In this document: positions 1 to 41,786 of the stretch, piece by piece | How positions within the stretch are numbered: the stretch's first letter is position 1 | Layout: each line of letters starts with the position of its first letter | Assembly (NCBI GenBank): GCA_025062155.1 | Contig: JANXAM010000011.1 | Location: 1 to 64,000, forward strand | DNA from: Gloeomargarita sp. SKYB120 | GTDB lineage: Bacteria; Cyanobacteriota; Cyanobacteriia; Gloeomargaritales; Gloeomargaritaceae | Length of the DNA stretch: 64,000 bases | Reading direction: 5' to 3' | Made by a program: the position numbers and the translations under genes | Notes under the pieces: model-generated | Told to the model about the DNA's origin: nothing | What the model saw: only the letters and a program-made list of their open reading frames with translations | Database searches by the model: none

Positions 1-14
1 TAAGGCTTAGACAT
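1..14 (-). CDS. IS630-type transposase, first four codons only (partial)
   Basis: The minus strand reads ATG TCT AAG CCT TA before the window ends, giving Met-Ser-Lys-Pro. This is the same N-terminus as the decayed transposase at 40996 (Met-Ser-Lys-Pro-Tyr). The in-frame start and the well-preserved upstream leader suggest a younger copy than those at 37164-41786. Whether the rest of the gene is intact cannot be judged here. Confidence 0.7.
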
Positions 15-74
15 GAAAAACCTCTATGAACTCATTAGCCCTATTCTATGCCAAGCTAAACGTTTTTAGCTATA
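1..74 (-). mobile_element. Terminus of an IS630-type insertion sequence, cut by the window edge
   Basis: Read on the minus strand, this is the left end and leader of an insertion sequence, running up to the transposase start codon. It matches the left end of the copy at 40936 with only 3 differences in the 74 bases compared, so the two belong to the same family. The element ends against TA followed by the last 12 bases of a CRISPR repeat, as expected for an IS630/Tc1-type insertion at a TA dinucleotide. The exact junction is ambiguous by 2 bp because the target contains TATA. The remainder of the element lies outside the window. Confidence 0.85.
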
Positions 75-815
75 TAAATTGGAAACACAACGGTTGTGCT
101 GACGACGGTCATAGCAATACCTCCTAAGTCCCCACTCGCTGGGGAAATCTATAAATTGGAAACAGAAAAATAAAATCCGTTCAGAGCTTAGAGAAATTAG
201 TCCCCACTCGCTGGGGAAATCTATAAATTGGAAACAAGGCAAAGGCCGCAAAGACCCCCGATAGTCTTGCTTGTCCCCACTCGCTGGGGAAATCTATAAA
301 TTGGAAACTAACTGGTACTCCAAGGCCTGTTTGCGAAAACTCTTGGGTCCCCACTCGCTGGGGAAATCTATAAATTGGAAACTGACAGGAACCTAAATCA
401 GGGGAATAGTTGATCGCAGTCCCCACTCGCTGGGGAAATCTATAAATTGGAAACCAGTTGTAGGCCGTGTCCTCGCTTAACCCTAAAACTTCGTCCCCAC
501 TCGCTGGGGAAATCTATAAATTGGAAACCCCAGAAGGGCCTGCGGGAGTGCCCCGCCTGGAACTGCGTCCCCACTCGCTGGGGAAATCTATAAATTGGAA
601 ACTCCATGCGAACGTAGTGAACCTTGTACTCTACCCTTGTCCCCACTCGCTGGGGAAATCTATAAATTGGAAACGATTACGAAAGTCTCCCCGCTGGCCA
701 GGCGGGGTTGAGTCCCCACTCGCTGGGGAAATCTATAAATTGGAAACGCAATACCCCCGCCGCCCTGAAGACCTGCGCGAACGTCCCCACCCGCTGGAGA
801 AATCTATTTGGAAAC
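73..815 (+). CRISPR. CRISPR array: nine full repeats, one IS-truncated repeat, one decayed terminal repeat, ten spacers
   Basis: Nine identical 36-nt repeats start at 128, 200, 273, 347, 419, 493, 567, 639 and 712. Each begins GTCCCCACTCGCTGGGG and ends TATAAATTGGAAAC. The repeat contains a 5-bp stem, CCCCA-CTCGC-TGGGG. The first copy (73-86) keeps only its last 14 nt because an IS630-type element sits inside it. The last copy (783-815) is 33 nt, with two substitutions and a 3-nt deletion. Spacers are 35-38 nt, apart from the first (87-127, 41 nt). A decayed repeat on the right and a GGAAAC 3' end suggest transcription left to right, with the leader to the left outside the window. No cas gene is in the window, so the subtype cannot be assigned. 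Confidence 0.97.
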
Positions 816-872: not shown

Positions 873-1472
873 ATGACGACTCCCCTACGGCTAGCGCTGT
901 TTGGCACCAGTGCGGACCCGCCGACGCTGGCCCATGCCCAGATCATTCGCTGGCTGGCTCAGGAGGACGAGTTTGACCAGGTGCTGGTGTGGGCAGCGGA
1001 TAACCCCATGAAGCCGAACCAGACGCCCTTGCCGCACCGGATGGCGATGCTGGAGCGCTTGGTGCAGGAGCTAGGGGAACCGAAGGTGCGCTTGGCGCCG
1101 GAGTTGAGCCACCGGTTTACACGGGTGAGTGTGGCGCGGGTCAAGGAACAGTATCCCCAAGCAACAATTACCTTGGCCTTGGGAGCGGACTTGTTGCCCC
1201 AGTTGCCCCGCTGGCACAAAGCGGAAGAGTTATTTCCCCAAGTGGAGGTGGTGATTATTCCCCGCACGGGTTACACGCTGGCGCCTGCCGCCCTGGATTG
1301 GTTGCATCAACACAGCCCTCGCGTGCGCATCGCCCCGATTACGGTGCCGGACTGGTCATCGCGGGCGTTTCGGGAGGGTCAATGCTTTGAAGAACTCAGC
1401 CCCGCCGTCCGGGCCTACATCCAGGAACACGGACTCTATCAGGAGGTGCAGGTGCCTACCCCACGCCGATGA
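873..1472 (+). CDS. nadD: Nicotinate-nucleotide adenylyltransferase
   Basis: This enzyme adenylates nicotinate mononucleotide with ATP to make deamido-NAD, the penultimate step of NAD synthesis in the cytosol. The 199-residue protein has the nucleotidyltransferase fold signature near its N-terminus, GTSADPPTLAHAQ at about residues 11-23, a variant of the usual GxFDPxHxGH. A C-terminal SSRAFR at about 160 corresponds to the ISSTxIR motif. The length is normal for the family. It is the first gene of a three-gene NAD operon, overlapping the next gene by 4 bp (ATGA at 1469-1472). The final product of the operon, NadE, uses the deamido-NAD made here, which supports the assignment. Confidence 0.9.
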   Translation: MTTPLRLALFGTSADPPTLAHAQIIRWLAQEDEFDQVLVWAADNPMKPNQTPLPHRMAMLERLVQELGEPKVRLAPELSHRFTRVSVARVKEQYPQATITLALGADLLPQLPRWHKAEELFPQVEVVIIPRTGYTLAPAALDWLHQHSPRVRIAPITVPDWSSRAFREGQCFEELSPAVRAYIQEHGLYQEVQVPTPRR

Positions 1473-40465: not shown

Positions 40466-40543
40466 TCTGGTTTCCAAACGAGTGGGGACAGGCAAAGGCC
40501 CGCAGCGTCAGGGTCATGTTTTAAGTCCCTGAGTGCAAATGCC

Positions 40544-40935: not shown

Positions 40936-41786
40936 TATGGCTAAAAACGTTTAGCTTGACATAGAATAGGGCTGATGAGTTCATAGAGGTTTTTCATGTC
41001 TAAGCCTTACAGCACAGATATGCGTCAGAAAGCCATTGAAGCGGTTGTGGGGGGTGCGACACTGGTCGAAGTGAGCTAGATGTTCAACATCGGGTATCAT
41101 ATGTTACAACGCTGGCTCAAGCAATGGTCTGAAACGGGTGATTGCTTACCAGAAGGAGCATAGTCATAAATTTCGCAAGTTTGTCGAGGCGAATCCCAGT
41201 CTGACCCAGAAGGAAATGGCGGCTAGTATGACGATTTGTAGGGCGCTTAATCAAGAGCGACAGGTGTATCTAGAGAGAATGAAGGATGTGAAGCCGGAAG
41301 AAGTAGTTTATTACCAGCAAGCAGTTTATGAGTATGGCTGGGGTGTAAAAGGGGAAAGAGTTTATGGCAAAAAAGAGTGAGTATGATGGGTGGTTATTAT
41401 CTGGGGAGATTAATTGAACCATTGATATGGATAGGTAACTGCAATTTACAGCTGGTTTTAACTTGGTTATGTGAGTGGTTACTACCAGCCATTGAACATG
41501 GTAAAAAGATGATGTTGGATAATGCTAGTTTCCATCGGTCTAAGGTCATCAAGCATGTGGTGGAGTCGGCTGTGTGTGAACTGATACATTTGCCCAGATA
41601 TTCACCAGATGTGCATCCGATTGATTGAGCAAAAGGTGTATAAGCTACAGGTGAATGCAATCGAAAATCTGCAACCTTATGGTCAATGAAACTATCCGTA
41701 GATTATGTCATGTTTTGTGATTTTATCTATAGGATAACGGTAACCCAAATGCAACCGCGCTTTGAGCATTAGGTTTTACTGGCTTG
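40936..41786 (+). mobile_element. Decayed IS630-type element (copy C)
   Basis: The left end, TATGGCTAAAAACGTTTAGC followed by TTGACATAGAATAGGG, is nearly identical to the element end at the window start. The right end, TTAGGTTTTACTGGCTTGA, resembles those of copies A and B. It is about 850 bp. The right end reaches almost to the rRNA methyltransferase gene. Confidence 0.8.
40996..41627 (+). pseudogene. IS630-type transposase remnant with early amber stop
   Basis: The start MSKPYSTDMRQKAIEAVVGG is intact, but TAG at codon 28 (41077-41079) ends it. Further on, LQRWLKQWSETGD and, in other frames, MMLDNASFHRSK with the second DDE aspartate can be read. The region of the first aspartate is degraded and the final glutamate is replaced (PID then stop). 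The gene cannot make an active transposase. Confidence 0.8.

Follow-up and report, generated by a model that had tools for sequence, protein, structure and literature searches.

An orphan CRISPR array next to an IS630-family insertion in a Gloeomargarita genome has probably lost its leader side

Insertion sequences (IS) within CRISPR arrays are already known from other bacteria. In Xanthomonas citri pv. citri, IS elements in the CRISPR array were seen as contig ends carrying IS inverted repeats (PMC6889575), and the occurrence of IS6110 in the CRISPR of Mycobacterium tuberculosis is cited within the same paper. The insertion of IS elements into cas genes is widespread (PMC10359306). For the IS630/Tc1/mariner family, the duplication of a TA dinucleotide is an established rule, e.g., for ISY100 (PMC2170065).

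The locus described here is one more example of an IS insertion in a CRISPR array. It is located at the left end of a stretch of 64,000 nucleotides (the window) of a draft Gloeomargarita genome, which comprises 2.48 Mb in 91 contigs and is 96.4% complete. Contigs down to 520 bp were retained in the assembly (examples 520–830 bp).

The IS630-family element and the interrupted repeat

The window starts with base 1 of its contig (C11) inside a multi-copy IS, and its left cut is therefore an assembly break. The same IS end also starts or terminates several other contigs, which have contig ends of about 77 bp in common. The 5′ end of the element occupies positions 1–72 (minus strand), and its tip is located at position 72. 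Only the first codons of the transposase gene are present in the window, beginning with the ATG start codon at positions 14–12 on the minus strand, and the open reading frame (ORF) runs leftwards off the contig, away from the array. The classification as an IS630-type element, which the initial annotation had made from the sequence, was verified by Pfam matches of the two transposase halves of the C16 copy to HTH_Tnp_IS630 (PF01710, E 9e-14) and DDE_3 (PF13358, E 2e-30). The element has terminal inverted repeats, in which 19 of 26 bases are identical between the 5′ tip and the inverted 3′ tip. The copies of the element start with TAGCTAAAAACG. Since TA precedes 11/11 copies of the IS end compared in the genome and the number of chance matches expected for the 29-nt IS end within the window is 0.00, a chance match at the array is ruled out.

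The element ends and the TA duplication were fixed independently by a second insertion. In the metagenome-assembled genome (MAG) of Gloeomargarita sp. SKYG116 the empty site GCAGCAATC-TA-TTGGCATGG is found, which is filled in the present genome, where the contigs C56 and C37 are joined by the element with TA on both sides. The flanks of this insertion are 98–99% identical to SKYG116, in which the element is absent. At the CRISPR junction, the TA at positions 73–74 marks the target-site duplication for the right-hand side, which is the only side visible there.

The element is young, since four other copies (on C16, C10, C56, and C12) match it over 72/72 bases, and the family was recently active, as the C37/C56 insertion is missing from SKYG116 despite the nearly identical flanks. 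In the initial annotation, the element was described as close to a further copy in the window (positions 40938–41729, plus strand) and as possibly still active. The difference of 3 bases was found again, and the recent activity of the family agrees with the second part of the claim; however, this copy, which is flanked by TA at either end, is a decayed pseudo-copy from the same IS family and not the nearest one, and the young age of the element does not follow from it. In the only near-full copy read (C16; L002:1505-2329), a run of 8 A divides the transposase ORF. The C18 copy has 9 A in that run and 7 A would preserve a single frame, so that a full-length transposase may require slippage or frameshifting.

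Directly after the TA, the last 12 nt of a CRISPR repeat, TAAATTGGAAAC, could be identified at positions 75–86 (plus strand), in which the hairpin half is missing and the 3′ handle is kept. The insertion of the element at a TA within a CRISPR repeat, as proposed initially, was thereby verified, and the insertion point corresponds to the first TA in the repeat (positions 23–24). The remnant is followed on the plus strand by the first remaining spacer (87–127, 41 nt), nine perfect copies of the 36-nt repeat GTCCCCACTCGCTGGGGAAATCTATAAATTGGAAAC with eight intervening spacers of 36–38 nt (128–747), the last spacer (748–782, 35 nt), and a degenerate 3′-terminal repeat of 33 nt (783–815). In total, the array contains ten spacers, all of them different, of which the first has 41 nt and the others have 35–38 nt. 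Identical direct repeats separated by unique spacers of near-constant length characterize it as a CRISPR array, and the repeats match the Rfam family CRISPR-DR58 below the gathering score. In the search for protospacers, the 22-nt cores of five spacers had no exact match in IMG/VR, and the comparison of the spacers with phages gave nothing significant.

The degenerate terminal repeat at the right end places the leader side of the array on the left, as do the leaders of two other arrays (on C19 and C55), which lie at the GTC side of the repeat. This agrees with the part of the initial annotation that placed the leader to the left of the element.

The CRISPR-Cas complement and the missing leader side

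Of the two other arrays, the one on C19 has the same repeat as the C11 array and its own leader, and the one on C55 has a different repeat and is linked to a cmr operon (Cmr2–Cmr6). The C55 leader is 88% identical to the C19 leader, although the repeats of the two arrays are quite different. Because this leader is common to the C19 array and the cmr-linked C55 array, the C11 array was assigned as an orphan array to the type III-B (Cmr) complement, an indirect assignment in which the C11 array is tied to type III-B by its repeat alone. A search of this genome for Cas1 gave no match. The Cas6 profile gave no match here, and the same profile also misses a complete relative that has arrays.

The whole assembly was searched for the other side of the insertion. 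The 20-nt repeat start (with up to two mismatches) was found only on C11, in the array itself, and on C19. The expected left half GTCCCCACTCGCTGGGGAAATCTA beside the 3′ end of the IS was not found anywhere in the draft assembly, and none of the IS 3′-end flanks that were read carries a half-repeat or a leader. Only two leader copies are present in the assembly, those on C19 and C55, and none for the C11 array. Since contigs as short as 520 bp were kept, a contig with the leader side should be visible. The initial annotation had regarded a left flank without a repeat half beyond the element as the sign of a rearrangement instead of a simple insertion; the assembly comes close to this state without fully reaching it, as the missing half may also lie in a gap of the draft.

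The possibility that the C19 array represents the missing left part was rejected, since this array possesses a leader and a truncated end of its own. Matching the IS flanks to the relatives resolved one pair only (C37 and C56). Furthermore, the left neighbor of the array could not be deduced via synteny: in this genome, psaA is not located beside nadD, and a tRNA and tadA come after it. The genes flanking that tRNA in a relative adjoin a phoU-like gene here.

To the right of the array, a synteny breakpoint is located at positions 816–827. Rightwards the sequence matches the relatives (nadD promoter), whose homology with the window starts at about 824, and leftwards the relatives carry psaA and no array. 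The ORF at positions 873–1472 (plus strand), which we take to be a nadD-like gene, has ortholog flanks in the relatives. In the two nearest relatives, G002 and SKYG116, psaA and nadD are divergent neighbors without an array. In the present genome psaA is located elsewhere, and the CRISPR array is situated where the divergent pair is broken. The identity to SKYG116 is a mosaic, with 98–99% at some loci and about 82% at nadD, which suggests exchange between species.

Fate of the leader side and of the spacers

With moderate confidence, the locus is explained as an orphan, leaderless type III-B array severed by an IS630 insertion, whose leader side was probably deleted or rearranged. A young element of the IS630 family would have transposed into the first TA of a repeat and duplicated it. 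The leader and the other half-repeat, once situated to the left of the element, were then probably lost or moved via IS-mediated deletion or recombination, and a leaderless orphan array would be the outcome. Spacers 1–10 would no longer be renewable, since there is no leader and no detectable cas1, and are probably frozen. Due to the loss of the upstream repeat hairpin, spacer 1 is unlikely to undergo normal processing. Spacers 2–10 retain repeats upstream, and these nine are expected to be functional only if another promoter transcribes them.

The initial annotation had assumed a simple insertion that leaves the leader side in place. In this case, the IS would split the array in the middle, and only the far part would be severed from the leader promoter; the half-repeat that ends in TA would lie beyond the element on an unassembled piece, together with newer spacers and the leader. 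This explanation is rather unlikely, even though it has precedents: the proven C37/C56 insertion of the same IS is simple, with a clean TA duplication, and the same contig-end pattern in the X. citri drafts proved to result from simple insertions (PMC6889575). In those drafts, however, both halves existed as contigs, whereas the present assembly, retaining contigs to 520 bp, contains no half-repeat, no further repeat, and no third leader. On the other side, the assembly, although 96.4% complete, is broken by IS copies, and the leader side may be unassembled. It is thus more likely that the leader side was lost or displaced than that it is intact but unassembled after a simple insertion, because neither a half-repeat nor a third leader is present in the assembly and a synteny breakpoint is located at the other end of the array.

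The suggestion that the IS provides a new outward promoter, which now drives the leaderless array, found no support. A -10-like motif, TATAAATT, is present in every repeat and in the remnant, but the promoter scan found no promoter-like site in 1–130 and one in 1–900, compared with 0.9 expected, and the transposase gene is oriented away from the array. Such a promoter is very unlikely, and a read-through from the IS into the array is not supported by the predicted sites. An assembly chimera, in which the IS end was joined to the array by a graph artefact or in a subpopulation (as a minority variant, if the population is mixed), is suggested by the draft state and the contig ends of about 77 bp shared at this IS, but is scarcely credible for a junction that lies at a TA target and has the correct IS tip, an in-register repeat remnant, and the TA duplication, which would be unexpected of an artefact.

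Comparison with related genomes and known systems

Further remnants of CRISPR arrays were detected in the lineage. In the window, a degenerate single-repeat remnant is located downstream of rtcB (40470–40489, minus strand); at this place, SKYG116 contains a long array with the identical repeat (about 30 repeats). The identical repeat was found 26 times in SKYG116, of which a contig matches one of genome G006 from the genus of the present genome. At the sufS locus, the present genome carries a leader and three spacers (C19, L021:9619-9890) and SKYG116 a solitary terminal repeat (L125:5130-5164). According to this comparison, a deletion in SKYG116 has taken the leader and the other repeats and left the last one, so that leader-side loss has occurred at least once more in the Gloeomargarita lineage. 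Solitary or near-solitary CRISPR repeats are scattered across several Gloeomargarita genomes (L126–L130), some of them adjoining leader-like sequence. A general scheme, in which IS insertions or deletions erode the arrays of the lineage step by step, beginning at the leader side, so that leaderless arrays and lone terminal repeats remain at several loci (nadD, rtcB, and sufS), with stranded spacers maybe expressed as frozen memory in a genome without cas1, is speculative and quite doubtful.

The locus is a clear example of a mobile element stranding immune memory, with a young IS at a known TA target in a repeat and with arrays of close relatives that are long, or reduced down to a single repeat, at comparable sites. 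It also calls for caution, as an array that begins a contig and seems to be an orphan may represent an IS break and not the natural end of an array. The general view of CRISPR biology is unchanged.

Among the known systems, X. citri is similar in that an IS is located in the array and separates its leader side from its terminator side; it differs in that the IS belongs to the IS21 family and both halves were recovered, whereas here only the terminator side is present (PMC6889575). In another known case, an IS is located in a repeat or spacer of the CRISPR locus and masks or removes spacers, as here, but the IS and the CRISPR type are different and the population is well-sampled. ISY100 of Synechocystis has the TA target and its duplication, a transposase with HTH and DDE domains, and a cyanobacterial host in common with the present element (PMC2170065). 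The likeness concerns these features; a difference is that the ORF of the C16 copy is split at the eight A. The insertions into cas genes have in common with this locus that IS transposition harms CRISPR immunity; there the cas genes are struck, and here it is a repeat of an orphan array (PMC10359306).
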